Of a stretch of DNA of 23,654 nt, positions 1-23,654 are shown piece after piece. Position 1 is the stretch's first letter; every line of letters starts with the position of its first letter. A program made the translations under genes and the position numbers. The notes beneath the pieces were generated by a model, which saw only the letters and a program-made list of their open reading frames with translations, had not been told where the DNA came from and searched no databases. Source of the stretch: a virus; the IMG/VR virus record IMGVR_UViG_3300006793_000287, positions 1 to 23,654 of that record. One strand, given 5' to 3'.

Positions 1-1451
1 AGCAAATCACCGAAATGAAGTCCAATACAGAAACGCAAAGCAAGGCAATAGTACAGGCCATGACGGTAGCGGCAAGGGAACTTGCACAAGCCTACGGTCT
101 TGACGAAGATGCAATTATGAAGATGCTTCCTAAAATGAAAATTTTTGCTCAAGGGTTTTCCGAAATCGAAGCAAAACAAAAGGCAACGGTCGCCGCAAGT
201 ATGAGGTTGCAGGGAATGCTGATGAAGACCTCCGGAGTATTGAGCGGATTGGCTATGGGATTCAGTACCTTTGGTGATAGCGAAAGGTCGGCAAGAGCGA
301 GCATGATTTTAATGAACATCGCTATGGTTCCCTCCACTATTCAAATGCTCGCTATGACCAAATCATCTATTGGTCTTGCGGCAGGTATGAACGGTGCCGC
401 CGTTGGAGTGAATAGACTTTCCTTTTCTCTTGCGGGACTAAAGAGCGCATTGCTAAAAACAGGCATAGGAATTGCGGTTGTCGCTATTGGTTCTCTTGCG
501 GCATGGTTGTTCGCAGGCGCAGACGAAGCGGATAATGCGGCAGACTCGATGAAGGAATTTGGACAGGCCATCAATTACACTGCCGAGCAATACAAAGAAA
601 TGGCTGATGCTTATCAAGGTGTTGATAGTGCTACAATGGCTTCGGATGTGGCGACAGTAACTTCGGAAATTGCCGAACTGCAAAAATTGAAAGCAGGTAC
701 AGACGACGATTCCCTACTAAAGTCTTACACAAACAGAATCGAGGCTCTAAAGGAAGAGCGAGCAATACTTCTCGATATTCAAAACATCAACACGGCGACT
801 TCGTTAGTAGGAGATACCGCCTCCGCAACAGAAGTCTTTGATATGGTTAAAGACTATCAACAAGCAGGTCGAGATGCGAAAGCGGCGGCAGAAGCCAACA
901 ATTTCCTTGATGCGCCAAACAATTTCCTTGCGGATAGAGATGTGTACAGTGAAATGTCTTTCGGTCTTTTTGACCCCGAATCAGCAAAGCAAAAACAGGC
1001 AAGGTTAGAGGGAGTCTATGCAGATGCGTTCGCCGCTATCCCTCAAGAATTTCAAGGGGCTATCATGGAGTTAGCAGAAAATGCTGATACGGCAGAAGAT
1101 TTTATCGCTGACTTGGCAGACTTTATTGCCTCGGACATTAACGGTATTCAGTTAGACCAATTCGGAGCGACAGTTCAAGAAGACATTATCGGACCAATCG
1201 AAGCGGCAAAGGAGGCGGCATTTGAGTTCGCTAACTCAAGAGAAGAAATGTTCTTCGGTATGGCAAAAGGAAACATTACAGGCGACATGGTAAAGCAAGT
1301 CGTCAACAAGGGCGTTGAAACGCTCATAAACACTACGGAAGTGATTATGACAAACAATTTCAACGGCATGACCACAGGACAAGCGGCAAACGAAATCACT
1401 AAGCAAGTGGTTAGAGAACTAAACGCCCGTGGTCTAAACATTACAGTGTAG
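1..1451 (+). CDS. Tail tape-measure protein, C-terminal part (5' end outside window)
   Basis: The frame is open from the left edge (codons before the first ATG at 15 read Q-I-T-E), so this is probably the 3' portion of a longer gene. From the ATG, 478 residues are visible. They are Ala-rich and helical, with one clear hydrophobic segment at about residues 148-167 (core GIGIAVVAIGSLAAWLFAG) and a weaker one near 95-112, flanked by Gln/Glu/Ala-rich helices. A long helical protein with one or two membrane-like segments just upstream of a large tail protein is typical of tape-measure proteins, which set tail length and may help deliver DNA across the envelope. No peptidase or lysozyme motif is seen in this part. 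The stop TAG (1449-1451) is 16 bases before the probable ATG of the next gene, so the two are co-transcribed. The family call rests on composition and position, not on a signature motif. Confidence 0.6.
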   Translation, partial: QITEMKSNTETQSKAIVQAMTVAARELAQAYGLDEDAIMKMLPKMKIFAQGFSEIEAKQKATVAASMRLQGMLMKTSGVLSGLAMGFSTFGDSERSARASMILMNIAMVPSTIQMLAMTKSSIGLAAGMNGAAVGVNRLSFSLAGLKSALLKTGIGIAVVAIGSLAAWLFAGADEADNAADSMKEFGQAINYTAEQYKEMADAYQGVDSATMASDVATVTSEIAELQKLKAGTDDDSLLKSYTNRIEALKEERAILLDIQNINTATSLVGDTASATEVFDMVKDYQQAGRDAKAAAEANNFLDAPNNFLADRDVYSEMSFGLFDPESAKQKQARLEGVYADAFAAIPQEFQGAIMELAENADTAEDFIADLADFIASDINGIQLDQFGATVQEDIIGPIEAAKEAAFEFANSREEMFFGMAKGNITGDMVKQVVNKGVETLINTTEVIMTNNFNGMTTGQAANEITKQVVRELNARGLNITV

Positions 1452-1467
1452 TAGAGAAGTGAAGAAC

Positions 1468-4400
1468 ATGTCAAGAACAGCAACAAGCAAGTACGGGTTT
1501 TGGCTCGCAGGCTCATACGAAGATTGGGTTGGGTCAAAAGTAATCGCAGACGATGCAAACCAACCATCGAGCGCAGGCACATACGACGCTGACAAAACAC
1601 ACTACGGCAACATCCTAAACGGCGAAGCGACCCTAAGTCCCCGATACCGATGGAGTATTCGGGACCGAGCCAACAATAACGAGTTCTCAACAGCGACCAA
1701 TTACTTAGCCTCTAACGACGGCATTTCTCGCTGGGCTACCCTTGACCCTATTCGGCTCGGAAAGGGCGAGAATTGGGGTGGGAGAGCGCAATTACAGTAC
1801 CCTAACTCATTGACCAACGCCAACAGATTCCGATACGACAAGGCAGGCAACAATAACGCCGACGATGCGTACATGCTTATGTCGTCTTCATACAATTCCT
1901 CAAACCGTTACTACATCCCCACCGGAGATACTGATTCCTCTTTTGGTCGTGAGTCACTATACGATTGGAATGGTAGGAATTGGACTGCGTTAATCGCTGG
2001 GCAAATTACCGGTGGTACCGCTCCCGAATTTATGCAACACGCAAGCCTAACCGGAGTATGGATGGGAGAAAGAATACAATGCAACGCATACAGTCTAACG
2101 ACAGGGGCGGCAACGACTCACGAAGACACACCCGAAGTTATTTTTTCCCCGATAAAAAGTAATTCCGGAAAACCATTCCTGTGCGTCACAACCTATCTTG
2201 CTGACGCTACGGCCAACCAAATCAACAATGTAGCACCAAGCGGAGCATACCGACCAGTGATTGCATCTTCCGCTAACCTCAACACCAAGTCCGATGGCGA
2301 CTTTTTCACAATCCGAATGTGTACTCAAGCCATGCTTGGTTTTGCCTCAATAGTACCCGATGAAAGTGTGGAGTCCGGCGCACCCGTTAGTTACACTTTG
2401 AAAATAGGCTTCCCAACATCAACGACCTTTGGTACAGCAGGTTCCGGTGGAGCGACACCAGCAATCAATTGGACTTTTAGACCCCAAAGTGGAGAGGGTT
2501 TAAGCGAAAATGAAAACCTGTATCATGTCGATTGGTTGGCAAGCCAAGACCTGCGCGACCCAAACCGTGACCCGTGGTACGACTTGGATTTCAAAATAGA
2601 CTACACCAACAATAAGTTCAAGGTGTACCACGAAGGAACCGAAGTCACAGCCACTAACCTAACAGCAGGCGCATACACTGCCGGTGCCAACGGAGGGTAC
2701 GATATGGCGAACAACAGTGATACCTCCGCCGCATTCAAAGCAACAGAAATGACAGGATGGGAACTTTTCGTAGCCCCCCTCGGAACGGCGTCAAACAAGT
2801 GTATTGTTGCGACAATGATTGACCGCTTTGCGGTTTATCGACCACTCACTGATACTCCCGACAATCGCGGTGACCGCTCTCCCGTAGCGGAGTGGCAGTG
2901 CAACACGCCCGTCAACGGGATTAGCGACGGAACGATTAAGATTCTTGACGACGACAGTGAACAAAATCTAACCCCGTGGTTTCTTAGCGACGAAATTACA
3001 GATTGGAGATTGCTCATGTTTAGCGGCAATATCCACAGACCTCTTTGGAATGGTATTATCGAAGGAGTAAAGGTTGCTCAAGTGGCCTCGGATAGAACAA
3101 GGGAAATAACAGTTACCGCGCGTGACTCACTTTCTGTTCTCGATAGACAAATTTCATCTTGGGAAGTAGGTCAAGTAGGTCTTGGTAACCAAGACCAAGT
3201 TCTTGCACGAAAGGAAGAAATAGCACTATTGTCCGACACAATGTTCTTCGGTGCCGCTCGTCTTGAAGACAGACAACCGACACTTGGGTTTGAATCGGGA
3301 ACAGGGTACAAACAACTGGAAGGACAGCGAGCGACTTTGTTTTCGGCTCACCCAATCCAAATGTACAACAACGAAGATGTGGCCGGACCCAACAATGTTG
3401 AAGACGGTTGGTTAGGCTACGAAGTGGCCGGTATTACCCAAGCGACGGCCAGTGGTGATGCACAGGTTATCTTGCGACATACTGGAACCTCATACACCAC
3501 AAGCGACACTCCGGATTTGTTTTCGTTTGACGACCACAATGAAAACGGCGTGACAATCAGTGCGGTGGGTTCCGGACCCACAGGCTTTGGTCAATTACTT
3601 ACTATTTCGGGAATGACATACACGGGTGAAACATCAGCGAACTTCACGGGCTACCAATCAACATCCCCAAGAACAGCCGCCGAATCCGGCTACCTCATAC
3701 TTCGCTTTTCTTCGGCACCAAGTCGCAACGACAACACTTTCCTTTCGACAGGGGATTTGGTCACAATCCCAGCAAGCGAAACCCAAGTCGGAACATCGTT
3801 TCGCAACAAGGTACATACGGTTATTGCCACCCAAACCATAGGTGGGGTGTTTTATGCTAAAACGCAAACGACAACCGGAGCATTGACACCAGTCACTTTT
3901 TCGACAGGTAAGTACACCATCGAACAAGGTAAAATTTCCGGAACAGCACAGGACTTAACACATCGTGACGCTCACGCTATTTGGATGCGTGACCTTCCAA
4001 AATCAGCATGGTTCAAAAAGCATTTTTCTGTTTATGGATTCTCGTTTGTCGATGCTGGAACAGCATCAGCATCCTTCACGGCAGACTCCAATGTTATCCA
4101 AGTAGGGTCTTCGTTCATTGATTCTTCGGAGAGTCACGGCGTAGGCCAAGTCGTCAATAGCGCAGGGTTCGTTGACACCTTCACTTACAACGGCTACATC
4201 AGCCCAGCAGACGACGGCAACCATTATCTTGTCGGAGTCAAGGGACTATCCATTGACCACGATAGCGGGGAAACGGTGTACACTCTTTCTGCCGGTACGG
4301 ACTACAAGCACCTTTGGTTGCAGTGGGCCGACATGCGAAACAACGGTGACGCTAACGCAGACGGTGGGTGGAGAAACAAGGCCTTCGGACTGCTCAAGCC

Positions 4401-7400
4401 CGTCAAGGACAATTACGATGTGTCAATTTCATTCACAGACCAAACAAACAACAACGGAGAGTACGATTCATTTATCTCCATGAACATCGGACAGGACTTG
4501 GACATTTGGGAACTCGACGCAACCACAGACCCAACAACAAACGCTCCGTGGTCAACCCCGTTAGGTGGTGGCGCAACAATCCAATTGACTAATGGGTATT
4601 CCGGTGATTCTATTATTAGTGACGGCTCAACAGGTATTAAGTTCAAGGTTCTCAACGCTGACTCCGGCGTATCGGATTTAGCGACTGGCGACAAAGTGAT
4701 TATCTTCAACAGCGATAACTACGACGGAATCCATACTATCTCCGGAATCACAGGCACTACCACCAAAGAAATCACATGTGCCACAAGTACATACACTACG
4801 ACGGAAACATACACTGCGACCGGTCCATTTGTACGGAAAGCGGAACAGGAGCATCGTGTTTCCGAACTTCAAGGCTGGGAGCAACAGGCCGGAGCCTTGT
4901 TGGTGTACGACTGTTCAAAGTTCTTTAACCTCAATACTTTTATCAACAAGGGTACTATCAATCAGCGTAGTGGTGGCACAGTTAGCGTGGGCGAATACGA
5001 AACCGAGTATCATGGCTTCCCCGTATTGATGGATAACTATTGGGTCCAAGCCACGAGTACCAATAACAACAACGCCGAACCATTCGCATTCAACCCTAAC
5101 TTCCGAAGATGGGTCAACGCAAGCGCAGAACTCAATCGAACAATCGAGGTAGGTGACAAGGTAATCGAAACCAAACCCTCGACCTCGCTGGTCGCCGACT
5201 TCCCCGAATTTGGTTATGGTAAAATTAAATGTACGAGAGATGCGAGCGGACAGAACCCATCCACTGAAATCTTTTGGTACACCTACGACGGCAAGTTAGA
5301 TGATGCGGTTGTCGAAACAGCCACATCAAATTCGGCGGTCGCTGGCGCACTAACCATCTTTTGCAGTGGTGCCGACTTCGTAAATGACGGCATAAAGGTA
5401 GGTATGCGAGTTAGAAATGTGACCGCTAAGTGGGTTGCCCAAATTACTTCTTTAACGGCAACAACAATAGTCGTTGACGACAGTATTGCTGGTGCAGAAA
5501 CCGGCAGTACACGGCAGAATGTCAACATCGGAGATAGCATTAGCATTCCACAACAATTGTACGGAATTTACACGCAGTCCGATGCGGCAACGAACTACAC
5601 AGGTGAAACGGCGGAAGCCTTGCTTGAAGGGATTCAAATGGATGATGTTATCAAAGCCAACGGAAGCACTGCCGAAATAGCAGTCAATCTGCCTAACCAA
5701 AGCCAAGTGAGCGGAGCATATGACGAAGTGGTAATCAGCGGTAGTGCGGCACCACGATATGCTCTTCGCTTCTTGATGAGAACAGAAGGGTATGTGTCAA
5801 GCCCGAACCTCGGAACCTTCATGGTACACGACAAATTACGCTTCCTGTGGTCTTTCACGCTGTCCGATACATGGCTGACCCAATCAGCAAGTCCTTGCTG
5901 GTTTGACCTATCATCGGTACCGCAGACGAACAACATGACGCTTGATGGCACTGACGCCGATTGGGATTCTTTCGGTGGCATATACGACGGTCGGGGTGGC
6001 AAGTCCCTATTGTCTTTGGTCCGTGAATCGACAGAAGCAAGTGGCGTAGGTCGAGAGAACGGCAAGAGGCTCGGACTCACATACCAAATGGGAAGAGATA
6101 ACAAATTGGAACTCCGCCCGTCATACAGTCTTGGGGAAGCATTGACACGAGATAGTATGAATGTCAACAGTCTTGACGCTTCGATGGCACAACAAATTAC
6201 AAATGTTCGAGTCTATTACAATAACGGTGGCTCTTTTTCGGACTACCCAGCACCATCCCTCAACCAAACCTACCGATGGAAGATTATCGAAGTTCCGGAA
6301 ATCGGAGTGGAAGAAGAAGCGAATTTGGTGGCCCAAGAAGAATACTATAAAGCCAAAACAAAGTCTATCCGCATCACTGGAAATGTGATGAGAGATTTGA
6401 CTCACGACGACAAAATGCTTGCCGGTGGTCGCTATGGATATATCGCTGACCCAACCCGTTTCGCAGAAAGAAGCGTTACTCAACAATACGCATTCGGACC
6501 TGCTTACCCTGCTGTATCGAACTCACTTAACTTCCAATGGTCTTCTCTCAACGGAAGTCTTGCGAACGGACAGTGCAACGCCTTAGATGGACACATGAGT
6601 ATCAACGGCGCAGACACCTTGAATCGTGACCGCTACGGTAAAGGACATGTCCCCCCAGCAGGTAGCAGTGCCGGTACCAACCACACCTACGACAAATCGT
6701 ATTGGTGGTGGGGAGCGCACAGTCTTAGTCACGCTGTCGGTATCGTTCACATACCAACAGATATGCCTTTGGTGAGCGACGGTAGCAACGAGGACTTGCG
6801 AATTTGGGTCGCCCTAAAAGACGGGCAAACCGGAACCGACATTGATAACGCCGAGTTCACGATTGGACTCACTGACCCTTCATTCGACACAACCGAGTCA
6901 GCCAAATTTAATTCGCATGGTGGAGCGTCGGTGCGTTACGCCCCAACATACGCTAATACTTCCGGAGGTGCCTTTGTCACCACTGTCAATGTCAAGCGTA
7001 ACGGATTTTACCAAATCGAAATCCCACCGAACTATTGGTCTTCTTTGCCATCCGGAGCAAGGATTACTATTTCGGTAAATGTTGACTATCTCAAGGAATT
7101 GCTACGACACCGTTGTGGCGACCCATCAGCATCGGGAATTTTGCACAACGCTCACGATATAACGGAAGCAGGTGTGCCGACATGGACAGCCACTAACACC
7201 GACTCAATCTTCCCGCTGGGGCTTCGCAAGTACGAAAACATGTCCGGACTGTGGGGTGTGAGAAATGTGTACTACTGTCCACGCATCCACATCACCAACG
7301 ATGTTCGATGGCGACCCGCAACGACTGTCGAGTTCACAGACTCCGGACTCGGTTTGTCTAACGAAACCCTAACCATCCAAAATATCCAGTGGAGTGTTTC

Positions 7401-8322
7401 GGGTCGAGATATTGAAGATGTGGCCTTGAGTATGGAAAGGGACCAAACAAAGAGTCTTGGCGGACTCGGTGCTTATCTTTACCCCAGTGTTGCTCGTGGT
7501 CGTGGACAAGGTAGCGGCAGTGGTACCGTCGGGGGGTCCAACGGTGGCTCAAGCAACCGACCACAATTACCACCACCAATGGTCCCACCATCGGGCGGAC
7601 CTGTGGGTACCAACCCCGTCGCACCCGGACAACAAGAAGGTGGGAGAAATCCATTTGAAGGTAATGGCACCTTCACTAACAGCGTGGGAAGCAACCAATT
7701 GGCATCCGGAGTTCACGGAAGAATGACCGGCAGAATGGACTTGCTCAATAATGGCGTTAGCGACTCTTCCTACGGCATTCTTGGACAAACAAGGGTTGCA
7801 CCCCCTCTCAACGCACAAAGGGCCGTAGATGGGCTGGGAGATAACATACAGGCCACTTCCGGAACTGCTGTCGTATCGGGGGAAGGAATGGTCTTCACAG
7901 GAATTGTTGACCCCGACTCATCGACCCGACTGACGCAGACCCACAACATAAGCGTAAAGGTACCCGACGATGTTGCCGACGAAATCATCAGCGTCACGGC
8001 TGTCTATTCCCTCGCTAATACAAGACCGGAACTGACGGCAGTCTTGACAGCGACAGTCACAGAAGAATTGTACGGTAATTCTGTTTCGAGAACATTTGCT
8101 TTAAGCGGAGGGGCTACCCGACGAACAACGGCAATCTTGGGAGGGACACCGCTGACAGGAGCGAACACCGAAGGTAATACCATCAACATCGAATTGAAGC
8201 GTACTCCGGGTACTGGCGAAGATGATGCTCTCTACGCCTCACTGGTAATCCATTCAATCAAGGTGAACTTCCAACGATACAGCATGAAGGGCATTGTCGG
8301 GAATGGACTGAACCCCTACTGA
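1468..8322 (+). CDS. Giant tail/baseplate protein, about 2,284 residues
   Basis: A single uninterrupted frame. An upstream GTG at 1459 exists, but it lies inside AGAAGTGA (1455-1462), which looks like the ribosome-binding site for the ATG at 1468. The protein is rich in Thr, Ser, Asn, Gly and Tyr and poor in Lys, as in beta-rich virion proteins. Near residues 545-565 the stretch REITVTARDSLSVLDRQI resembles the 'T..A.D....L' strands of baseplate/hub proteins, and near 1565-1605 a segment (NKLELRP, then ITNVRVYYNNGG) looks like a second hub-type domain. Around residues 2010-2065 there is a low-complexity Gly/Ser/Pro/Gln linker, followed by a beta-rich C-terminal domain of about 220 residues ending at GNGLNPY. 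I infer a tail tip, baseplate or fibre protein, possibly carrying receptor binding beyond the linker. Its 3' end overlaps the convergent nuclease gene. Confidence 0.6.
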   Translation: MSRTATSKYGFWLAGSYEDWVGSKVIADDANQPSSAGTYDADKTHYGNILNGEATLSPRYRWSIRDRANNNEFSTATNYLASNDGISRWATLDPIRLGKGENWGGRAQLQYPNSLTNANRFRYDKAGNNNADDAYMLMSSSYNSSNRYYIPTGDTDSSFGRESLYDWNGRNWTALIAGQITGGTAPEFMQHASLTGVWMGERIQCNAYSLTTGAATTHEDTPEVIFSPIKSNSGKPFLCVTTYLADATANQINNVAPSGAYRPVIASSANLNTKSDGDFFTIRMCTQAMLGFASIVPDESVESGAPVSYTLKIGFPTSTTFGTAGSGGATPAINWTFRPQSGEGLSENENLYHVDWLASQDLRDPNRDPWYDLDFKIDYTNNKFKVYHEGTEVTATNLTAGAYTAGANGGYDMANNSDTSAAFKATEMTGWELFVAPLGTASNKCIVATMIDRFAVYRPLTDTPDNRGDRSPVAEWQCNTPVNGISDGTIKILDDDSEQNLTPWFLSDEITDWRLLMFSGNIHRPLWNGIIEGVKVAQVASDRTREITVTARDSLSVLDRQISSWEVGQVGLGNQDQVLARKEEIALLSDTMFFGAARLEDRQPTLGFESGTGYKQLEGQRATLFSAHPIQMYNNEDVAGPNNVEDGWLGYEVAGITQATASGDAQVILRHTGTSYTTSDTPDLFSFDDHNENGVTISAVGSGPTGFGQLLTISGMTYTGETSANFTGYQSTSPRTAAESGYLILRFSSAPSRNDNTFLSTGDLVTIPASETQVGTSFRNKVHTVIATQTIGGVFYAKTQTTTGALTPVTFSTGKYTIEQGKISGTAQDLTHRDAHAIWMRDLPKSAWFKKHFSVYGFSFVDAGTASASFTADSNVIQVGSSFIDSSESHGVGQVVNSAGFVDTFTYNGYISPADDGNHYLVGVKGLSIDHDSGETVYTLSAGTDYKHLWLQWADMRNNGDANADGGWRNKAFGLLKPVKDNYDVSISFTDQTNNNGEYDSFISMNIGQDLDIWELDATTDPTTNAPWSTPLGGGATIQLTNGYSGDSIISDGSTGIKFKVLNADSGVSDLATGDKVIIFNSDNYDGIHTISGITGTTTKEITCATSTYTTTETYTATGPFVRKAEQEHRVSELQGWEQQAGALLVYDCSKFFNLNTFINKGTINQRSGGTVSVGEYETEYHGFPVLMDNYWVQATSTNNNNAEPFAFNPNFRRWVNASAELNRTIEVGDKVIETKPSTSLVADFPEFGYGKIKCTRDASGQNPSTEIFWYTYDGKLDDAVVETATSNSAVAGALTIFCSGADFVNDGIKVGMRVRNVTAKWVAQITSLTATTIVVDDSIAGAETGSTRQNVNIGDSISIPQQLYGIYTQSDAATNYTGETAEALLEGIQMDDVIKANGSTAEIAVNLPNQSQVSGAYDEVVISGSAAPRYALRFLMRTEGYVSSPNLGTFMVHDKLRFLWSFTLSDTWLTQSASPCWFDLSSVPQTNNMTLDGTDADWDSFGGIYDGRGGKSLLSLVRESTEASGVGRENGKRLGLTYQMGRDNKLELRPSYSLGEALTRDSMNVNSLDASMAQQITNVRVYYNNGGSFSDYPAPSLNQTYRWKIIEVPEIGVEEEANLVAQEEYYKAKTKSIRITGNVMRDLTHDDKMLAGGRYGYIADPTRFAERSVTQQYAFGPAYPAVSNSLNFQWSSLNGSLANGQCNALDGHMSINGADTLNRDRYGKGHVPPAGSSAGTNHTYDKSYWWWGAHSLSHAVGIVHIPTDMPLVSDGSNEDLRIWVALKDGQTGTDIDNAEFTIGLTDPSFDTTESAKFNSHGGASVRYAPTYANTSGGAFVTTVNVKRNGFYQIEIPPNYWSSLPSGARITISVNVDYLKELLRHRCGDPSASGILHNAHDITEAGVPTWTATNTDSIFPLGLRKYENMSGLWGVRNVYYCPRIHITNDVRWRPATTVEFTDSGLGLSNETLTIQNIQWSVSGRDIEDVALSMERDQTKSLGGLGAYLYPSVARGRGQGSGSGTVGGSNGGSSNRPQLPPPMVPPSGGPVGTNPVAPGQQEGGRNPFEGNGTFTNSVGSNQLASGVHGRMTGRMDLLNNGVSDSSYGILGQTRVAPPLNAQRAVDGLGDNIQATSGTAVVSGEGMVFTGIVDPDSSTRLTQTHNISVKVPDDVADEIISVTAVYSLANTRPELTAVLTATVTEELYGNSVSRTFALSGGATRRTTAILGGTPLTGANTEGNTINIELKRTPGTGEDDALYASLVIHSIKVNFQRYSMKGIVGNGLNPY

Positions 8323-9032
8323 TGGGTGTAGTCCTTTCTCAACGCCAAGACTTTCTTGGCCTGCTTGCTCGTGATGTTAGCACAGGCAACCATGTCCTTC
8401 TGCCGAGTCTTCTTTCTTAGAATTGCGGGAATACTACCATACTCCAACAGGAGAGCAGTGGCCTGTTCTCGATTGATTCCGCAAGTCATTAGACACTTGA
8501 TTCGGTCGTCGTCGTTGATATTGACAACCTGTTTCGGCAAGTGGCTCTTTGGTGGTTTTATTTTTGCGATAACATTTTGCCTGTGATTGGTGTACAACCA
8601 TTCGACAAAATCATCCATCGTGGTCAATTGCAAAAAGTGGAGATTAGGAAACCGTTGGTGCATGGTCATTTTGAACGAGTTAATGACAGCCGCCATCTTC
8701 TTGCGCTCTTCGGACAATTCCTTAGCAGAAGGTCTGCGACCGTGGAACCACGGCTTAAGTTCGGTATTGTACACGACGAGGAATGGTCGTTCATAGGTTT
8801 CGCATAAGTCCTTCAATTGGCCGACGATGGTTCGGGAGCGGCCAATACCGAGGATGCTACGGTAAAGGTCATTGATTTCTTTTGCCTCAATACCCCAACC
8901 ACCAATGACATAATCACCGGACTTCATCGAGAGAACTCGTGCCTGTCCCTTCGGGTTGTTATCTGCGTCACCCATCTTGACAAGTAATTTGTGGATTAAC
9001 TTGGGGTTTTCTCGATGGTCAACAAGGAGCAT
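8316..9032 (-). CDS. XPF/ERCC4-family structure-specific nuclease with C-terminal helix-hairpin-helix
   Basis: This 238-residue protein has the ERCC4 nuclease core: VDHREN at residues 4-9, GDYVIGG at 39-45, then E49-A50-K51 with D55, corresponding to the family motif ERKxxxD, and a strand FLVVYN. The usual Arg of ERK is Ala here. The C-terminal region (about 175-238) carries two helix-hairpin-helix-like segments (CLMTCGINREQATALL and ACANITSKQAKKVL) that would bind DNA. Archaeal XPF/Hef and Mus81 relatives cut flaps, forks and 3' overhangs, so a role in processing replication or recombination intermediates is likely. The ATG at 9032 is preferred; a GTG at 9044 would add four residues but falls in a GAGTGG stretch that may be the ribosome-binding site. 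The gene follows the primase, 24 bases after its stop. Its stop TAG overlaps the stop of the convergent tail gene. Confidence 0.8.
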   Translation of the reverse strand: MLLVDHRENPKLIHKLLVKMGDADNNPKGQARVLSMKSGDYVIGGWGIEAKEINDLYRSILGIGRSRTIVGQLKDLCETYERPFLVVYNTELKPWFHGRRPSAKELSEERKKMAAVINSFKMTMHQRFPNLHFLQLTTMDDFVEWLYTNHRQNVIAKIKPPKSHLPKQVVNINDDDRIKCLMTCGINREQATALLLEYGSIPAILRKKTRQKDMVACANITSKQAKKVLALRKDYTHQ

Positions 9033-9056
9033 TAGCAACGCCACTCAACCAATGGT

Positions 9057-10064: not shown

Positions 10065-10186
10065 TGTGTTCCACACCCTTGACATTTATTTACAGTGATT
10101 GATTCGGGAGCCAACCCTTGTTGACCCGTTACTCTCCACATTACTTCTGTCTTAATATCTCCACTATCACATTTCTTACAATTCAT
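10049..10186 (-). CDS. 45-residue zinc-ribbon protein
   Basis: A small protein with two Cys pairs, CKKC near the N-terminus and CQGC near the C-terminus (NKCQGCGTQW), about 30 residues apart, the pattern of a zinc ribbon. The ATG at 10186 sits seven bases after GGAGTGG, a good ribbon-binding-site match, and overlaps the last 11 bases of the nuclease gene. Its TGA lies inside the 5' end of the primase gene. The tight overlaps on both sides and the good ribosome-binding site argue for a real gene. Zinc ribbons of this size occur in transcription factors (TFIIS/TFB-like) and as accessory nucleic-acid binders; nothing in the sequence decides which. A longer frame reaching back to 10234 lies within the nuclease gene and is not favoured. 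Confidence 0.7.
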   Translation of the reverse strand: MNCKKCDSGDIKTEVMWRVTGQQGLAPESITVNKCQGCGTQWTTS

Positions 10187-11096
10187 CGTTGTCCACTCCA
10201 ATAAGTTCTTCGTTGCACGACAAATGGAAGTCACACCATTGGGTGCAAAAGTATTCGTTCCACTTGATAGGCCACTGTTGGGTCATAATGCCGTGTACGG
10301 AGTTATTTAACTTCTTCTCCATAGCGGTGATACTACGCGTGTTAATTTTCTCGTACACACCAACGCCCTGCATCAAACCGCAGTAAATCTCGGTGTTTCT
10401 TTTCCCTTCTAACTTAAGCATGAACTCGGCGTCGTCGGAGTCGGGGAAGATGGTCAAGAAGTGAGTCGGTTCGTCGTAACCTGCGAGCATCAACAATTTG
10501 CGATAGTAGCACAGTTCCCCACGGGTGCGGGATAACTTGCTCATGTTGGCGTTGCCGGTCTTCAATTCGACAACGACAAGGTGACCGTCGGGATGTCGGA
10601 AAACGCCGTCAATCATGCCGACGAGTTCCACCGAGTAGGTGACAGTATCGACGCCATCCTCGGCCTCGTTAGGCACCAAGACTTCGATTGTGTGAGGGAT
10701 GATGTGCTTGTCCTCAAGTTCAACAATTTCAAAGTGACCCCAAGCATTAGCAACCTCGCCAAGAATCTCACAAAGAGCATCAACACCGACTTCGGTTTGA
10801 ACATCTTGAGCGACAGCGTGTTTGTCGAATACATTGTGCATCTGCGTATTGACGCCAACTTCAACAGTCTTGTTCAAAGACACTTCCCGTAGCGAATCCT
10901 CCATAACTTGGTGGATAGCAGTACCACGAATAGCGGCGTCGCTGGACTTGAACTCCAAGTCCGGAAGTGCTATCTTGTTCCACCAATACTGCCGAGGACA
11001 CATGGCGTACTGCGTGTACGAAGACTTGCTAACGCGCAAGCACATTTCGTCAGTGACCTTAGTAGGGTCATATGTCGAGTTCTTTACTTCTCCCAT
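10176..11096 (-). CDS. Cas4/RecB-like PD-(D/E)XK nuclease with predicted Fe-S cluster
   Basis: The 306-residue protein has the order of motifs of RecB-type nucleases: RGTAIHQVMED with H62, GMIDGVF with D163, VVVELKTGN with E177 and K179, and a helix GELCYYRK in the position of the QxxxY motif. C33 (AMCPRQYW) together with C284, C288 and C294 (CTQWCDFHLSC) matches the four-Cys Fe-S arrangement of Cas4/AddB nucleases. It probably degrades or resects DNA ends in replication, recombination or packaging. The ATG at 11096 is chosen because a TATA box (TATAAA on the plus strand at 11120) is 24 bases upstream, as expected for a leaderless mRNA; an in-frame start at 11150 lies upstream of the promoter. 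No CRISPR or other cas gene is nearby, so a CRISPR role is not supported. Confidence 0.85.
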   Translation of the reverse strand: MGEVKNSTYDPTKVTDEMCLRVSKSSYTQYAMCPRQYWWNKIALPDLEFKSSDAAIRGTAIHQVMEDSLREVSLNKTVEVGVNTQMHNVFDKHAVAQDVQTEVGVDALCEILGEVANAWGHFEIVELEDKHIIPHTIEVLVPNEAEDGVDTVTYSVELVGMIDGVFRHPDGHLVVVELKTGNANMSKLSRTRGELCYYRKLLMLAGYDEPTHFLTIFPDSDDAEFMLKLEGKRNTEIYCGLMQGVGVYEKINTRSITAMEKKLNNSVHGIMTQQWPIKWNEYFCTQWCDFHLSCNEELIGVDNDEL

Positions 11097-11118
11097 GTAT
11101 ATACATACACGGGCAGGC

Positions 11119-11129: not shown

Positions 11130-11146
11130 GGGATAGGCGACTAAAG

Positions 11147-14452: not shown

Positions 14453-14463
14453 ATATAAAGGTT
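14453..14463 (-). promoter_or_regulatory. TATA-box promoter for the hypothetical-polymerase unit
   Basis: The minus strand reads AACCTTTATAT, identical to the elements at 11119, 18450 and 21349. Its first bases belong to the TAA stop of the upstream HTH gene. The box is 35 bases from ATG 14419, consistent with a leader of about 10 nucleotides. Confidence 0.7.
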
Positions 14464-14791
14464 ATTGACGGCGACCACGAGGTCGTGCGGGGATGTTCAA
14501 TTTCACGAGCCACTGGTGAATACTCATCGGGGTGATATTGAAAATTGATGCTATTTCCTTGAGCGTTTTACCTTTGGTGACATACTCGTTATACAACCAA
14601 TCTCGGTCCCTGTACAATTTGTCCTTTGGTATTTCGGTAATTTTAACCGAAGCAACAATTGTTCGGCCACCATAATCGAATTGAAATTCTGTTTCGCAAT
14701 TCGGGCTGACATCCTCGTCAACATCCATCATTCTAATGGTGTTGAGAATTAGATTTTCCTTTAGGGCTTCGGTTAGCGGGTACTGCGCCAT
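14462..14791 (-). CDS. Helix-turn-helix DNA-binding protein
   Basis: A 109-residue protein. The C-terminal part holds a homeodomain-like HTH: DWLYNEYVTKGKTLKEIA, then FNITPMSIHQWLVKLNI, followed by a basic tail PARPRGRRQ. This resembles the domain found in phage small terminases, HNH-associated proteins and transposase-type regulators. The N-terminal half is acidic (DVDEDVSP) with a short beta segment. Its ATG at 14791 is 24 bases from the TATA box at 14814-14820, predicting a leaderless mRNA. It sits between two promoters and could regulate them, or act as an accessory DNA binder; the sequence does not decide. Confidence 0.75.
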   Translation of the reverse strand: MAQYPLTEALKENLILNTIRMMDVDEDVSPNCETEFQFDYGGRTIVASVKITEIPKDKLYRDRDWLYNEYVTKGKTLKEIASIFNITPMSIHQWLVKLNIPARPRGRRQ

Positions 14792-14821: not shown

Positions 14822-14983
14822 TCACTGGTCAGCCATATAAACCCGAATCACTTCTTCATCACGAACAACACGCTGGGTTCCGCAGTATTTCCGCTCCCCG
14901 TTGATGCTAACACGGTGATTGTTGGCGGCGGACATAACTACCCGACCGCAACCGTTACATTTACGAAGACAGTTCCGTGGCAT
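14822..14983 (-). CDS. Mini Cys-containing protein, 53 residues
   Basis: A small gene whose ATG overlaps the methyltransferase stop as TAATG, a common translational-coupling arrangement. The product begins MPRNCLRKCNGCGRVV and has four Cys (5, 9, 12, 34), so it could bind one zinc ion, with CxxxCxxC and a distal Cys. The C-terminal half is charged (RVVRDEEVIRVYMADQ). No other similarity is recognised. The tight junction with the methyltransferase gene and the Cys pattern are the evidence that it is real. Confidence 0.6.
   Translation of the reverse strand: MPRNCLRKCNGCGRVVMSAANNHRVSINGERKYCGTQRVVRDEEVIRVYMADQ
14835..14841 (-). promoter_or_regulatory. Second TATA-like element upstream of the HTH gene
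   Basis: The minus strand reads GGGTTTATATGG within the last codons of the mini Cys gene, 21 bases upstream of the other TATA box and 45 bases from ATG 14791. It may be a tandem promoter giving a leadered transcript, or a chance match. Confidence 0.35.
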
Positions 14984-15951
14984 TAGAACCACTCCCTGTC
15001 CTGTTTGTCAAGCCCCACCTCTTGGCGATACGCCAGTATTCGCTTCTGCGCTATCTCGCTGTATTTTTCACTGTACTCAAGGAGCAAGGCATTGCGACCA
15101 TGCTTAATGGATGCGATGGCGGTTGTCCCAGCACCCCCAAAAGGGTCCAGTACGGTGCCGTCGAGGGGACAGCCAGCGAGGATGCAAGGCTCAATCAGTT
15201 CGACGGGAAACACTGCGAAATGCGCTTCGGGGAATGGCTTGGGGCCGACCCACCAAACACTGCGCTTGTTTCTTTTATCGTATTGTTTAACACGAGCATC
15301 TGCGATTCCTTTCGCCTTGCTTGTGCGGTTGGGGTCGCCTGCGGCCCATGCCTCATTCTCGGCGTACTTGTTGGCAGACTTGTTCTTATCCGGCTTGCTC
15401 ACAGTAGGCTCTTTGATGGCTTCGTGGTCGTAGTAGTAATCTTTACTTTTCGATAAAAGAAAGATATACTCATGGTTTTTCGTACATCGGTCACGAACAG
15501 ACTCCGGCATACAATTTGGTTTAGCCCAAATAATATCCTGTCGCAAATACCAACCATCAGCACGAAGAGCAAATGCGAGCATCCACGGGATGCCGACCAA
15601 ATCCTTCTGCTTGAGGTCGCCGGAGGCTTGGTTGCGTTGAGTAGTAGGAAGTCCACGGTCGCCACCGGCATTGTCCGGCACTCCGGACTTGCGGGAACCT
15701 GCACAATACGAATCACCAATGTTGAGCCACAGCGTACCTTCGGGCTTGAGTACACGCTTGACTTCACGGAATACTTTTACCATATTATCAATGTACTCTT
15801 CGGGCGTGGCTTCAAGTCCCAATTGACCTTCACCACCACCGTAGTCACGAAGTCCCCAATACGGAGGGGAGGTCACGCAGGTGTCAACGGACTCATCATC
15901 CATGTGCGCCATCAGTTCGACACAATCTCCGGTGCGTATTTCAAAATTCAT
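14983..15951 (-). CDS. DNA (N6-adenine or N4-cytosine) methyltransferase, beta-type motif order
   Basis: The 322-residue enzyme has the catalytic motif TSPPYWG at 27-33 near the N-terminus and the AdoMet-binding motif DPFGGAGTT at 269-277 near the C-terminus, the permuted beta order. The middle holds the target-recognition region (DSYCAGSRKSGVPDN, Lys-rich KPDKNKSANK). SPPY enzymes methylate exocyclic amino groups, either adenine N6 or cytosine N4; the sequence alone does not settle which. The ATG at 15951 is preceded by GGTGG six bases away and overlaps the upstream stop by 11 bases; the longer frame to 15993 is therefore not favoured. No restriction endonuclease partner is next to it, so a solitary viral methyltransferase protecting viral DNA is likely. 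See the palindrome-avoidance finding. Confidence 0.92.
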   Translation of the reverse strand: MNFEIRTGDCVELMAHMDDESVDTCVTSPPYWGLRDYGGGEGQLGLEATPEEYIDNMVKVFREVKRVLKPEGTLWLNIGDSYCAGSRKSGVPDNAGGDRGLPTTQRNQASGDLKQKDLVGIPWMLAFALRADGWYLRQDIIWAKPNCMPESVRDRCTKNHEYIFLLSKSKDYYYDHEAIKEPTVSKPDKNKSANKYAENEAWAAGDPNRTSKAKGIADARVKQYDKRNKRSVWWVGPKPFPEAHFAVFPVELIEPCILAGCPLDGTVLDPFGGAGTTAIASIKHGRNALLLEYSEKYSEIAQKRILAYRQEVGLDKQDREWF

Positions 15952-16270
15952 GCTTCCACCAATATGTATGAGGTTTGTCGTATGAGCGGTCAATCAAACC
16001 CATACGGGCTAACATTCCGAGAATACTTCCCACCACTTGATTCGACCACCCTTGTCCGTTAGGGATGTATTTGTCACCCAACGCACGAACTTGTCGTGCG
16101 CTCAACGGTCGCCCGTTGCTTTGATATTTGAGAACAGCAAGACAGGCCAATTTAAGGTATATTTTCCTACCCTTGAGGCGACCGCCAGTGTGGTCGTACA
16201 TTTCCTGTACTTGTTCGATTGATAGCCCTTTGAGGCTACCATTGAGAGTGTTGATGGTATTGTCTTCCAT
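15941..16270 (-). CDS. Winged-helix-like small protein
   Basis: A 109-residue protein starting at ATG 16270, just after TTTGGTGATTGTC, a good ribosome-binding site. It has a helical core (YLKLACLAVLKYQSNG, LSARQVRALGDKYI, VVGSILGMLARMGLI) followed by a short hairpin (RSYDKPHTYWWKHEF). Three helices followed by a wing describe a winged HTH, so DNA binding is likely, though the family is not recognised. Its last 11 bases overlap the methyltransferase start, so the two are translated together. It may be a regulator or an accessory of the methyltransferase. Confidence 0.7.
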   Translation of the reverse strand: MEDNTINTLNGSLKGLSIEQVQEMYDHTGGRLKGRKIYLKLACLAVLKYQSNGRPLSARQVRALGDKYIPNGQGWSNQVVGSILGMLARMGLIDRSYDKPHTYWWKHEF

Positions 16271-17494: not shown

Positions 17495-18427
17495 TCAAGC
17501 ACCCCATGTGAGCATTGGAAGTCCAGTCCATTGTACTTTACCCTTGATAATAGAGAGGATGGTGTTGGTCTGTCCGATGAACTCCATGTGTTGCCCCTTG
17601 ATTTCTTCAATGGTAGCCTTGACAACCCAATCGTCGTCATTCTTGAGAGTCGGGTCAGCCTTGACGCCAGCGGCGGTATCAGCCTTCTTCATGTAGCGTG
17701 ACAAGAAGATTTGCTGGGAGAACAAGCGCATGGTACCTTTGTCCCATTCCGGTCGCTCGCCGACCTTCATTAGAACCTTGCCACCGGAGCCGTTGTCAAC
17801 ATAGTTCGACACATCTTTGAGGTGGAAGGTGAAGAACACACAAGGCACAGCAAGACCGTGAAGTCGAGTCATAACTTGGCGGAACAATTGGTTGCGGGTG
17901 CGCCATTCTTTTTGGTTGAAGGAGTCGCCTTCTTCTTTGATAACACCCTTTCGGAGCAGAACATCAGTCATTGCGAACTCGCACCACTTCAAGAAGGTCG
18001 AACCGCCGTCGAATACAATTCCGGCAATATCTTCTCCTTCCTTTGACTTGTCAGCGACAATGTTCACGAAGTAGTTCACCTTGTCAATCAAGTTAGCGTA
18101 GTTCACAGTAGCATCCCCGTTGAAGATACTGTCGTCACGCTCGTCAAGAAGGGGAAGGACTGTGATTTCATCGTCGCCTGCGTATGCGGAGTCGATGGTG
18201 GCCTTCGCCGAGTTATCAACATCGAACACATAGATGCGACCCTTCGGTCGTACCTGTCGGCAAATGCTGATGGCTGTACCGGTCTTGGCACAGTTCTCCT
18301 TACCGATTAGTGCCATGCGTACAGGCACCGATTGTGCGGTGTTGTTCTCAAAAAGACCACGGTAGTAGTCCTTGTCAAATCCCGTTTTAGTGACGGTCGC
18401 TTCTGTTGCTTTAGTTCCCCAAGACAT
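17495..18427 (-). CDS. RecA/Sak4-like P-loop ATPase
   Basis: A 310-residue protein with a P-loop region MALIGKENCAKTGTAIS (G42 to K48-T49) and a Walker B strand IAGIVFDGG with D140. The Walker A motif is unusual: the Gly normally before Lys is Ala (GKENCAKT). The layout matches the single-domain RecA-like ATPases of phages (Sak4 and related 'AAA_24' proteins), which promote strand annealing or recombination with an SSB. The ATG at 18427 is favoured over 18451 because the latter lies inside the TATA box. Between box and ATG is AGGAGG (18436-18441), a perfect ribosome-binding site. It likely acts with the putative SSB encoded two genes upstream. Confidence 0.75.
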   Translation of the reverse strand: MSWGTKATEATVTKTGFDKDYYRGLFENNTAQSVPVRMALIGKENCAKTGTAISICRQVRPKGRIYVFDVDNSAKATIDSAYAGDDEITVLPLLDERDDSIFNGDATVNYANLIDKVNYFVNIVADKSKEGEDIAGIVFDGGSTFLKWCEFAMTDVLLRKGVIKEEGDSFNQKEWRTRNQLFRQVMTRLHGLAVPCVFFTFHLKDVSNYVDNGSGGKVLMKVGERPEWDKGTMRLFSQQIFLSRYMKKADTAAGVKADPTLKNDDDWVVKATIEEIKGQHMEFIGQTNTILSIIKGKVQWTGLPMLTWGA

Positions 18428-18449
18428 ATTATTTCCTCCTGTTGTAGCC

Positions 18450-18460
18450 ATATAAAGGTT
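18450..18460 (-). promoter_or_regulatory. TATA-box promoter for the RecA-like ATPase unit
   Basis: The minus strand reads AACCTTTATAT; the box is 24 bases from ATG 18427, the leaderless spacing. It lies between the chaperonin stop (18469) and the ATPase start. Confidence 0.7.
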
Positions 18461-18468: not shown

Positions 18469-20055
18469 CTATTCTTCGCCCACCAAAACGATTCGGTCGG
18501 TGAGTAGCATGAGCCGAGCAATTGATGCGGCGGCTTTGATTGAGTTCACAAGCACAAGCGTAGCGTCGTACACATCACAAGCGTCTTGTGTTTCGATGCT
18601 GAACTTCGCCTTGTGAAGATTGGAATAGTAGTGTTTCTGTACGAATAACTTCCTAATATCTGCGAGCGATTGCTCGCTTCCAGCGTTCTTGGTCAGCACA
18701 CGAACCGGTTCAAGGAGAACCTTCTCCCATCGCTTGTCAGCGCGTGTGAAGGTGTCGGAGGTGGCGGCGGTAGTCATTCGTGCGAGAGTCACACCAGCAC
18801 CAAGAACAGTACCGCCCTTCATGGCGAGTCGGGTGGCGTTGACAGCATCGTCAACCCTTTCCCTCGTTTCACGAATTTCAGCCTCGCTGAATCCTCCGAT
18901 GTGAATGTTAGCAATCTTTGAATTTAGTCTTGCGGCACGAGTAAGCAATTTCTCTTTGGTGAAAGAATGAGTGGAAGCGGCGGCTCGCTTTTGCAGACTC
19001 AAGACATGAGCAGGCAACAAGTCCTTCCCAACCTCACCAGCGATGATAACGGTTTCTGTTTCGGTAATCCTAATTGTGTCGGCGGAACCAATCATTTTGG
19101 AACCAGCGACAACATCGGCGATAGTGTGACCTTCGGCATCGAAGAAGTTCTTACCACCCACAAGGGCTTGAATGTCTTCAATCCAAGCGAGAGGGTCGGC
19201 GTAGGGAACCTTGATGGCACACGCCTTGACAACACCACCGATATGATTGGCGATGAGGTTTGACAAAGCAATACCCTTAATGTCTTGACAGACGATGATG
19301 AGAGGCCGGTTGTTCTCGACTGCGATTTCAAGAGCAGGCATCAAATCCTCAAAGTCTTCAATTACTGTTTGGGTAAGAATAAACAGCGGGTTGTGATACT
19401 CCACAGTTCGCTTGTCCGTATTGCAGAACATCGGAGAAACGAATGTTGTGGGAATACTCGTACCGACAGCGTGTGACCAAATCGTGTGGTCGAGAGAGCC
19501 GACCTTGAGATTGACAAGTGCGTCGGGACCGAGTTCGGTGAAGATTTCAGCAACCAGTTCACCGAGAGGTTCGTCGTTGTTAGCGGCAACAGTAGCCACG
19601 AACTTTAACCGCTGTTCTAACTCATCCCACTCATCTTCGTCAGTGAGCGCACCAAAGTCTATCTCTTCACTTTGCATTTCGATGTATGCAACGGTTGCGT
19701 CTGTGAATTGAGCGATTTCTTGGGCGGCTCGGACTTTGTTGGGATGGTCGGCGTATGCGTTGCAGATTGCACGAGCAAGTAGTGTTGCCGTTGTAGTACC
19801 GTCACCGGAAGCCTGTTGAGCCTCAAGTGCGGCCTGTCGGAACAATTGCACTGCGGCTTGTACCGCAGGCTTTTCGGACTTGACGGAGGAAACAATCTTC
19901 ACGCCGTCGTTCAGCACCGTCGGTGGTCGTTCGGGATGCGTGACGAGAACAGTTCTCGCTTGCGGTCCCAGCGTACCTTCAACAGCATCAGCGACAAGGT
20001 TGATTGCTTCCAAGAGAGCGGCTTGCGCCTGCTCACCCATAACTACATTTGACAT
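18469..20055 (-). CDS. groEL: Group I chaperonin (GroEL-like, HSP60 family)
   Basis: The 528-residue protein follows GroEL from end to end: TLGP at 28-31, LNDGVKI with D50, GDGTTTA at 84-90 with D85, apical segment FVSPMFCN at 205-212, PLIIVCQDIKGIALSNL from 251, GGVVKACAIKVP, and VDDAVNATR at 401-409 with D403. These correspond to the nucleotide-binding and catalytic residues of GroEL. The apical domain resembles GroEL and lacks the long helical protrusion of the archaeal thermosome. The second Gly of the GGG turn is Ala (LGAGV), and there is no GGM tail. Length is close to GroEL (about 548). No GroES is seen in the window. GGGGGGT lies about 10 bases before ATG 20055. It probably folds virion or replication proteins during infection. 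Confidence 0.92.
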   Translation of the reverse strand: MSNVVMGEQAQAALLEAINLVADAVEGTLGPQARTVLVTHPERPPTVLNDGVKIVSSVKSEKPAVQAAVQLFRQAALEAQQASGDGTTTATLLARAICNAYADHPNKVRAAQEIAQFTDATVAYIEMQSEEIDFGALTDEDEWDELEQRLKFVATVAANNDEPLGELVAEIFTELGPDALVNLKVGSLDHTIWSHAVGTSIPTTFVSPMFCNTDKRTVEYHNPLFILTQTVIEDFEDLMPALEIAVENNRPLIIVCQDIKGIALSNLIANHIGGVVKACAIKVPYADPLAWIEDIQALVGGKNFFDAEGHTIADVVAGSKMIGSADTIRITETETVIIAGEVGKDLLPAHVLSLQKRAAASTHSFTKEKLLTRAARLNSKIANIHIGGFSEAEIRETRERVDDAVNATRLAMKGGTVLGAGVTLARMTTAATSDTFTRADKRWEKVLLEPVRVLTKNAGSEQSLADIRKLFVQKHYYSNLHKAKFSIETQDACDVYDATLVLVNSIKAAASIARLMLLTDRIVLVGEE

Positions 20056-21359: not shown

Positions 21360-21360
21360 G

Positions 21361-22266
21361 TTACTGGCTCCCTCCGACCAGCATACGGACAAAATTGTAG
21401 CGCACTACCTCTTCATCCACACCGTTGATTATGTCACGCTCGGCGGTAATCGCCGCTTCAATAACACGCATCTTGGACTGTACTTTTGCGCCGGATTCGA
21501 CGGCGTATTGGAAACACGCTCGGACTTGGTACCGAACATCACCTGTCAACATCTTGACTGCTGTTTCAAAGTTCTTTTCCCGAAAACATACAATGAGCAT
21601 TTTCGAGAAGTCGATGTGAGGTGCAGTCAAACCGTCGAGGAATGATTCAGCAGTTCGACCAGTCAAACCACAGTATGTTTGCAAAGCACCGATAGCGTTC
21701 CGCAAATCACCGTTGTGCGCCCTTGCTATAACCTCAACAGAAGTCTTGGAAATGTCACCGTTACCTGTTTGCACAGCAATAGAGGTCAAGCGTTCTGTCA
21801 TATCCAAGATTGGTATTGGGTTAAAGGTACGCACTTGGCACCGACTTTGTAGCCAGCGAGAAACCATCGGAAGGCGATTGCAAGTGAGAATAAAATAACC
21901 GTTAGCGTTTTCAATCACACCCTTGAGAGCCGACTGTGCGGCGGGAGTTAATTGGTCTGCTTCATCGAGCAAAAAGATTCTCTCCTTAATACCACTTCGG
22001 GTCATAGGGATGAGAACATCCTCAACGAACTCGATACCACGCTCTCTCTTGGAGGATGCGTTGAAGGTAACCAATTGCCAACCCAAGTCCTTTGCAAGAG
22101 CATAAGCGACGGAGGTCTTGCCAGTACCAGCCTCCGGAGAGAAGAACAGGTAGTGTTGCATCGGCAGTTCGCCGAGAACGATTTGATGCAATTCTGCGAT
22201 GAGTTCCGGCTGACCTACTATTCCCGTAAGACTTGTAGGTCGGTGGTGTGTAGCCCAAACGCTCAT
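21361..22266 (-). CDS. Clamp loader ATPase (RFC small subunit / T4 gp44-like)
   Basis: The 301-residue AAA+ protein has Walker A SPEAGTGKTS at 43-52, Walker B IFLLDEADQL with DEAD at 101-104, sensor 1 FILTCNR near 126-131, and the SRC motif LQSRCQV at 139-145, which is diagnostic for clamp loaders. The N-terminus (WATHHRPTSLTGIVGQ) matches the RFC box region. Details such as SPxxGTGKT and LQSRC-V-TF are closer to T4 gp44 than to host archaeal RFC. It would load the clamp onto primed DNA. ATG 22266 overlaps the preceding stop as ATGA and follows GAAGAGGA. No RFC large subunit or gp62-like partner is recognisable in the window. Confidence 0.92.
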   Translation of the reverse strand: MSVWATHHRPTSLTGIVGQPELIAELHQIVLGELPMQHYLFFSPEAGTGKTSVAYALAKDLGWQLVTFNASSKRERGIEFVEDVLIPMTRSGIKERIFLLDEADQLTPAAQSALKGVIENANGYFILTCNRLPMVSRWLQSRCQVRTFNPIPILDMTERLTSIAVQTGNGDISKTSVEVIARAHNGDLRNAIGALQTYCGLTGRTAESFLDGLTAPHIDFSKMLIVCFREKNFETAVKMLTGDVRYQVRACFQYAVESGAKVQSKMRVIEAAITAERDIINGVDEEVVRYNFVRMLVGGSQ

Positions 22267-22469
22267 TCCTCTTCCCCCGTTAGGTCGGTAATCACTTTCT
22301 GTGCGGCACATAACTTGCAGTGGTGGCGACCTTCAAATTGAGGGAAGCACTTCTCCGGTCGTGTGCATTTGACGCAGTGAGGGCAGGGGATTCTGCCGAT
22401 GATTTTGTCCCTGTAAGACCTGCCGCAATGTTGGCATAGAGTCCATCGACCAAGAACCTTGTATGTCAT
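22263..22469 (-). CDS. Cys-rich zinc-binding small protein, 68 residues
   Basis: The protein contains eight Cys in pairs: CQHC (with GRSY), CPHC, CTRPEKC and CKLC, enough for two zinc sites. The C-terminus is acidic (LTGEEE) and encodes the ribosome-binding site of the clamp loader gene, whose ATG overlaps the stop. ATG 22469 follows GAGGTGAAAGT, a strong site. The pattern is that of paired zinc knuckles in nucleic-acid-binding or adaptor proteins. I do not recognise a specific family. Confidence 0.75.
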   Translation of the reverse strand: MTYKVLGRWTLCQHCGRSYRDKIIGRIPCPHCVKCTRPEKCFPQFEGRHHCKLCAAQKVITDLTGEEE

Positions 22470-23210: not shown

Positions 23211-23212
23211 AT

Positions 23213-23635
23213 TTATTCCTCCAAAAAGTCTGCGAGTACGATGCCTTTGTATCTTCGTGTCCCAGCCGGTTGCGTTTTGCTCGCAGGGGCTTCATGTTGC
23301 CTTTCACTGCGAGGGGTATAAGGCTTCTGTTCCGCCTCCGGCACGAGTACACGGAAGGCCGAGAAGTATTGTTTCCTTGAAACCATTTGGTTTCCGTTCT
23401 TGGCCCGACGGCGTGGGTGCATGAGGTGCCAAGCGACTTCGACCTTGCGACCGTTGACGGAGCGAACCGACTCGGCGTTGAAGAGATAGCCACCACTGGA
23501 ATGATTAGTGTTCACCACTGCGGTGATGATGAACCCACCGGTCTTGGAGGGGACAGGCGCACGACCAGCACACACCTTGATTTGAGCGACGGTCAATTTC
23601 TCGCCGACCTTGAATGGACTTCGTGTTTCGCTCAT
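23213..23635 (-). CDS. Hypothetical basic protein, 140 residues
   Basis: The product has a compact beta-rich first half (GEKLTVAQIKVCAGRAP, GGFIITAVVNTNHSSGGYLF) and a basic second half with a low-complexity stretch (residues about 105-125, Pro/Ser/Gln/Ala rich), ending ADFLEE. I do not recognise it; the fold pattern could be a small beta-barrel binding nucleic acid. ATG 23635 follows GAGGGTGATGAAGA. The stop at 23213 lies in the sequence that supplies the next gene's ribosome-binding site. Confidence 0.7.
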   Translation of the reverse strand: MSETRSPFKVGEKLTVAQIKVCAGRAPVPSKTGGFIITAVVNTNHSSGGYLFNAESVRSVNGRKVEVAWHLMHPRRRAKNGNQMVSRKQYFSAFRVLVPEAEQKPYTPRSERQHEAPASKTQPAGTRRYKGIVLADFLEE

Positions 23636-23654
23636 TCTTCATCACCCTCACAAT
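23632..23654 (-). CDS. 3' end of a further minus-strand gene (partial)
   Basis: Only the last codons are in the window. In one frame they read C-E-G-D-E-E-stop and the TGA overlaps the next ATG as ATGA, the same junction as elsewhere in this array. The acidic end also matches its neighbours. Function cannot be judged. Confidence 0.4.

Follow-up and report, generated by a model that had tools for sequence, protein, structure and literature searches.

The window analysed here, a single fragment of 23,654 bp (positions 1–23654) from the IMG/VR virus record IMGVR_UViG_3300006793_000287, contains no copy of the palindromic tetramers GATC, AGCT, ACGT and CTAG on either strand. Replication genes are encoded on its minus strand and large structural or tail-like genes on its plus strand. 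The minus strand carries a family B DNA polymerase (PolB; 11820–14063; Pfam PF00136, E 5.7e-35; 73 related viral loci), which is the gene by which relatives were found and placed, a group II chaperonin (thermosome) of the magrovirus type (18469–20055; PF00118, E 1.3e-31; ten viral loci) and a clamp loader resembling the replication factor C (RFC) small subunit (21361–22311; Pfam AAA, E 4.3e-12, and DNA_pol3_delta2) and the RFC region of HCTV-5. The same strand encodes an ERCC4-type nuclease (8316–9044; PF02732, E 3.7e-08), a Cas4-like PD-(D/E)XK nuclease (10176–11150; PF12705, E 4.8e-15; Cas4 in PADLOC), a RecA/RadA-like AAA_24 ATPase (17495–18451; PF13479, E 8.1e-08) and a DNA methyltransferase (14983–15993). 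On the plus strand lies a gene for a protein of 2287 amino acids (1459–8322) without a Pfam match, which has homologues of 28–30% identity in the related loci L062, L099 and L130 and is probably a tail protein, given its size and position.

The thermosome is a gene of magroviruses, which are defined by magrovirus-type major capsid and portal proteins, a linear genome of 90–110 kb and a Poseidoniales host. The window holds their replication module, with an archaeal-type PolB, an RFC-like clamp loader, a PD-(D/E)XK nuclease and the thermosome, all opposite to the structural genes; this 23.7 kb fragment contains no capsid or portal gene. Such opposed transcription of modules has been described for magroviruses, viruses of Poseidoniales (PMC12999244). 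Judged by its gene content, the window is a fragment of a marine, magrovirus-like tailed archaeal virus, and kinship to these viruses makes Poseidoniales (marine group II, MGII, archaea) presumably its host. A megablast search of the window against GenBank phages gave no DNA match and no named magrovirus record matched; the best PolB matches among named viruses are haloviruses with 22–24% identity. A scan of genome contigs for the thermosome gave a single match, to an unrelated and spurious bacterial contig.

The four missing tetramers are the only absent ones among all 256. Their absence, first noticed by reading the sequence, is borne out by exact counts and by two null models. A second-order Markov model expects 69.9 copies of GATC, 71.8 of AGCT, 69.8 of ACGT and 30.7 of CTAG, while shuffling of synonymous codons (22.9 kb of coding sequence, 300 shuffles) expects 76±7, 81±8, 70±6 and 34±5, respectively, with a lowest count of at least 22. 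An order-3 Markov null was set aside as unfair because the missing tetramers are built into it, while the order-2 model gives none. The 80–95 copies originally expected for every tetramer is too high a figure for CTAG (31–34). CGCG had been listed as simply present, which is not so: it occurs seven times against 67 (codon shuffle) to 74 (Markov) expected, and no common flank was found for the copies that remain in the window. At about one tenth of expectation, CGCG is intermediate, unlike the all-or-none tetramers, and may reflect a barrier that was recently met or lost.

The avoidance is visible in the choice of codons, much as the original prediction had it. Asp before a codon starting with C is encoded by GAC 56 times and never by GAT, and Asn, Asp or Tyr before GT- uses 54 T-ending codons and no C-ending codon. 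Glu before CT- behaves likewise (GAA 34, GAG 0). Both the tail and the replication modules are covered, with the structural gene at 1459–8322 sharing the avoidance.

All four tetramers are indeed absent, but as a description of the missing set they proved too narrow, since non-palindromic, degenerate and six-base words are missing too. When all 4–6-mers of the window are scanned strand-symmetrically against maximal-order Markov expectations, 18 words come out as avoided, five tetramers included; in terms of restriction specificities, avoidance applies to 17 of the 272 that are testable. Among the five-base words with no copy are GCWGC (GCAGC/GCTGC; 39 expected), CCWGG (14), CTSAG (as CTCAG; 15.5), TCWGA (as TCAGA; 15), CCAGA (13), CCTGA (16), GAGAC (32), CGTCC (26) and CAGAG (18). 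The hexamer CCAAGG (21 expected) and the degenerate hexamers GDGCHC (21), CCWWGG (27) and CYCGRG (14.5) are likewise at zero. All eight YCWGR words (CCWGG, CCAGA, CCTGA, TCWGA and complements) have no copy, while other N-CAG-N contexts are normal, GCAGC excepted; this suggests a single degenerate specificity or else several that overlap. GCAGC, CCAGG, GGACC, CACTG, GTCAC and CTCAG were rejected as asymmetric pentamers in their own right, being halves of GCWGC, CCWGG, GGWCC, CASTG, GTSAC and CTSAG, and several seemingly unknown hexamers turned out to be members of GDGCHC, CYCGRG, CTRYAG and CCWWGG.

Searches with PolB, the thermosome and the methyltransferase yielded 132 viral loci, and the whole or near-whole records of about 50 relative contigs (9–86 kb) were analysed. 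Here the avoidance extends over up to 86 kb, in keeping with the proposal that it is a property of the whole genome. The relative G023 (67.6 kb), for example, has no GATC where 196 are expected, and G045 has no AGCT where 222 are expected. An assembly or library artefact was rejected because the absences are found again in numerous independent IMG/VR records, and L099, drawn from the same collection, does contain the words. A PolB tree of 52 rows, with smaller denominators for some words, shows near-universal avoidance of the four tetramers (AGCT in 52/52, GATC in 51/52, ACGT in 49/52 and CTAG in 44/52) and of the longer core words CCWGG (34/36) and GCWGC (39/46). Around this core there is an accessory set, in which avoidance of CGCG, GTAC, GGWCC and TCGA comes and goes among closely related viruses; state changes on the tree number 11 for CGCG and GGWCC, ten for GTAC, CAGAG and GCTCC, and five for TCGA. 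In pooled counts, CGCG is found 923 times against 4345 expected. G028 (L174–L176) and G029 (L177–L179) lack CGCG altogether (0/238 and 0/236 observed/expected) and over-represent GCGC (435/352 and 424/333). Nine palindromic tetramers are avoided in each of G042 and G038, and of the roughly 300 specificities that can be tested in longer relatives, about 30 are avoided (32 in G016, 30 in G023).

With one and the same scan applied to up to 40 kb per genome, magrovirus kin avoid 11–31 words, compared with 26 in halovirus HF2, 30 in HRTV-8, ten in HCTV-5, four each in T7 and Staphylococcus phage K, one in Helicobacter pylori phage KHP30 (26 kb) and none in the marine cyanophage-like AG-345-F15. Unrelated viruses that share the methyltransferase gene alone mostly avoid 0–3 words (five in L131); L109/L118, at first grouped with them, proved to be distant PolB relatives.

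How sites are lost can be followed between close relatives. The window and its sister G016, which are 81% identical, can be aligned over 21.9 kb of orthologous coding sequence, a pairwise comparison that does not by itself point to the sister in which a change took place. None of the 25 ACTGG sites of the window is conserved in G016, 13 of them being lost without an amino-acid change, and none of its 15 GTAAC sites is conserved either, while 36 of 73 sites of the control word GGTCA are. Similarly, the 47 TCGA sites of the window correspond to none in G003, 25 through synonymous change. Site loss between relatives hence proceeds largely by synonymous change, with controls partly conserved. These comparisons bear on the idea that the words disappear through a bias, mutational or compositional, in the replication machinery of virus or host. 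CTAG is scarce in many genomes, which would fit such a bias; no other evidence requires it. Very close relatives of equal composition miss different words, and a bias is not workable because composition and host type differ little between such close relatives. The Markov and codon-shuffle nulls contradict it as well, as do degenerate classes (GCWGC, CASTG, GTSAC) that vanish as units while near neighbours such as GCSGC do not, and the enrichment for known restriction specificities described below. We give this explanation next to no weight.

The avoided words are nearly all known recognition words of restriction enzymes. The words avoided in 28 kin records with a length of 25 kb or above were compared with the REBASE list in Biopython. 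Known six-base specificities account for 37 of the 47 asymmetric hexamers that one or more of these records avoid, compared with 184 of the 1825 hexamers that are not avoided (odds ratio 33, p = 5e-27). Exact asymmetric pentamers are enriched as well (odds ratio 6, p = 0.002); both p-values take words and not the mutually related records as the unit. Decoy sites made by reversing the real ones are avoided in 164 of 5972 cells, less than the real sites (415 of 6048). Degenerate classes are lost as units, namely GDGCHC, CYCGRG, CTRYAG, CTGRAG, CCWWGG, RAATTY, RCATGY, RGCGCY, CASTG and GTSAC, and GCWGC is lost where GCSGC is kept. A search of the records of 30 kb or longer gave no avoidance specific to one orientation, so there is no signature of Type III restriction. 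The recurrently avoided words GTAAAC, GCAGGA, ACATCC, GCGGAC, GTAGA, CCTGA, CAGAG and CGTCC match nothing in the REBASE list used and are candidates for new specificities.

The breadth of this set also bears on a possible role of the virus itself, in which nucleases of its own would cut the host's DNA wherever these words occur, and their absence from the viral genome would be self-protection. Magroviruses have been reported to carry restriction-enzyme-like nucleases (PMC12999244), some archaeal tailed viruses carry restriction–modification systems (PMC8651126), and the window itself encodes ERCC4, PD-(D/E)XK and possibly HNH nucleases. The number of words avoided per virus, which reaches 30–50 among the relatives, is far beyond the reach of its nucleases, and the proteins of the window that were scanned include no recognisable Type II restriction enzyme. 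Self-protection of this kind is highly improbable. The C-terminal half of a 109-amino-acid protein (14462–14791, minus strand) is similar to HNH-endonuclease families of phages and has the look of a helix-turn-helix domain; this protein is also conserved among distant relatives.

Methyltransferases offer a second view of the missing sites. The enzyme of the window (336 amino acids) is Type II-like and of the N4/N6 kind (PF01555, E 6.5e-53; PADLOC MTase_II, E 1e-101). Its catalytic motif TSPPYWGLRDYGG is of the N4-methylcytosine (m4C) type, and its relatives in the PDB include cytosine-N4 methyltransferases and M.PvuII. The target is presumably a word that the genome still contains. TCGA and GTAC look unlikely as candidates, because the words purged differ among relatives whose enzymes are similar, and nothing positive follows from this on the target.

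Among the relatives, L099 (record G049), L107 (G050) and L130 (G051) keep GATC, AGCT and ACGT. The PolB of G049 and G050 is 46–47% identical to that of the window, and a thermosome-like protein is shared by all three records. In G049, GATC is found 266 times against 306 expected and AGCT 266 times against 361. Next to the thermosome gene, G049 (L230:14017–17914) and G050 (L233:1180–6332) each have a tandem array of three different methyltransferases (N4/N6, C5 and N4/N6). Across the whole G049 record (L229–L232), GGATCC (0/26 observed/expected), TGATCA (0/40) and AGATCC (1/20) are missing or rare despite the kept GATC; the lack of GGATCC and TGATCA is what one would expect if longer sites were targeted apart from GATC. 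G052 and G053, distant archaeal-virus relatives that purge AGCT, ACGT, CTAG and GTAC, keep GATC in part (80/233 and 142/321). Among 40 records, these two alone have a Dam-type methyltransferase that passes the Pfam cut-off (L236:17693–18850 and L240:5831–7201), and the NCBIfam Dam model TIGR00571 matches both (E 2e-13 and 2e-12), below its curated cut-off. Dam-family or tandem methyltransferases are thus present in four of the six GATC-keeping records, small numbers from incomplete records whose methyltransferase targets are unproven, and a Dam-type match over the cut-off was found in none of the 34 GATC-purged records searched, where absence of a gene is weak evidence as these too are incomplete. 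A parallel exists in haloarchaeal tailed viruses, in which GATC is kept where a Dam-type methyltransferase is present and is missing where it is not (Liu et al., 2021; PMC8651126). The trend recurs here in G052 and G053; the differences are that dozens of other words are purged too, and that the non-purging G049 and G050 carry cassettes of three methyltransferases.

Purging of many words under numerous host Type II restriction systems is very probably the best explanation of these observations. Restriction in the hosts had been proposed from the tetramers, and the match of the words to known specificities and the largely synonymous loss of sites between sisters support it. Poseidoniales hosts would collectively carry many Type II restriction systems. 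Almost everywhere, viruses would meet a core barrier at GATC, AGCT, ACGT, CTAG, CCWGG and GCWGC, and particular virus lineages would meet further systems, a changing set. A lineage that gains the matching methyltransferase could then keep a site rather than purge it.

Persistent archaeal methyltransferases recognise GATC, AGCT, CTAG, CCWGG, GTAC, CGCG, GGCC and CTNAG (PMC10609329), and four of the six core words overlap their targets. One MGIIA genome is methylated at CGCG (PMC9516812), a word depleted here. Both observations speak for host restriction. A rival reading is that orphan host methyltransferases mark self while an effector, whether Type IV-like or part of repair or replication control, attacks DNA that is unmethylated at these words, which would impose the same selection with a killing step other than classical restriction. 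In favour of it, GATC, AGCT, CTAG, GTAC, CGCG and CTNAG are targets of persistent archaeal methyltransferases that are mostly orphans (PMC10609329). The avoided set is not confined to orphan targets, since it includes asymmetric words of the Type IIS/IIG kind and the sort of degenerate hexamers that restriction enzymes typically recognise, and GGTAG, which is methylated together with CGCG in one MGIIA genome (PMC9516812), is not avoided (2850 observed versus 3210 expected). We regard such marking as unlikely.

Host restriction, for its part, has several observations to contend with. The record of GGTAG counts against it too, and many of the persistent archaeal methyltransferases are reported as orphans with no nuclease partner (PMC10609329). 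GTAAAC, GCAGGA, GTAGA, CCTGA, CAGAG, CGTCC and AAACT are avoided and match no listed specificity. In G041, GATC is kept although the 32.6 kb fragment yielded no methyltransferase, an unexplained case, and purging also occurs in several viruses that have two or three methyltransferases. Host enzymes of these specificities, their cutting of this virus and the identity of the host are what we infer. Nothing usable on Poseidoniales restriction systems was found in the literature, a magrovirus survey (PMC10160649) does not mention restriction or palindromes, and no report of such avoidance in magroviruses was found in the open-access literature.

The kind of phenomenon is already known. Dyall-Smith and Chiang (2020; PMC7230728) described the HF1 group of haloviruses (HF1, HF2, HRTV-5/7/8, Serpecor1 and Hardycor2), which lack GATC, CTAG and 21 six-base palindromes, an absence attributed to sequence-specific defences of the host; HRTV-7 also lacks AGCT and most members lack GGWCC. 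These are likewise tailed archaeal viruses with the same avoidance, and in our analysis asymmetric and degenerate specificities are avoided in both groups, non-palindromic words having been outside the focus of that study. HRTV-8 (L215) and HF2 (L220) lack the non-palindromic CTACAG, GAGCAC, GAGCCC, CTCTTC and GCGGAC as well as CASTG, CCWGG and GCWGC, several of these words being common to the marine viruses. The viruses studied here differ in being marine magrovirus kin, in which more tetramers are purged (up to nine) and a tree separates core from accessory words; the virus of the window is a more extreme member of this class. In bacteriophages, Type II sites are under-represented under host restriction (Rusinov et al., 2018; PMC6286503). 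T7 and Staphylococcus phage K resemble the marine viruses in having GATC among their avoided words, whereas magrovirus kin avoid many more, with complete zeros where tens to hundreds of copies are expected.

What is new is the host group, the breadth, the division into core and accessory words, and the finding that degenerate and asymmetric specificities are avoided too. About 30 specificities are purged at once in a 60 kb stretch at little apparent protein cost. We suggest tentatively, and with more doubt than conviction, that the missing words record the restriction repertoire of uncultured Poseidoniales, with a near-universal innate barrier at the six core words, new specificities at GTAAAC, GCAGGA, GTAGA, CCTGA and CGTCC, and archaeal orphan methyltransferases at GATC, AGCT and CTAG that act with a nuclease or another killing partner in these hosts. 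If this is true, the defence repertoire of a group that ranks among the most abundant uncultured archaea of the ocean would be readable from its viruses, sites that are cut almost everywhere could be told from those that change between host lineages, and virus–host matches and new enzyme specificities would become predictable from sequence alone.

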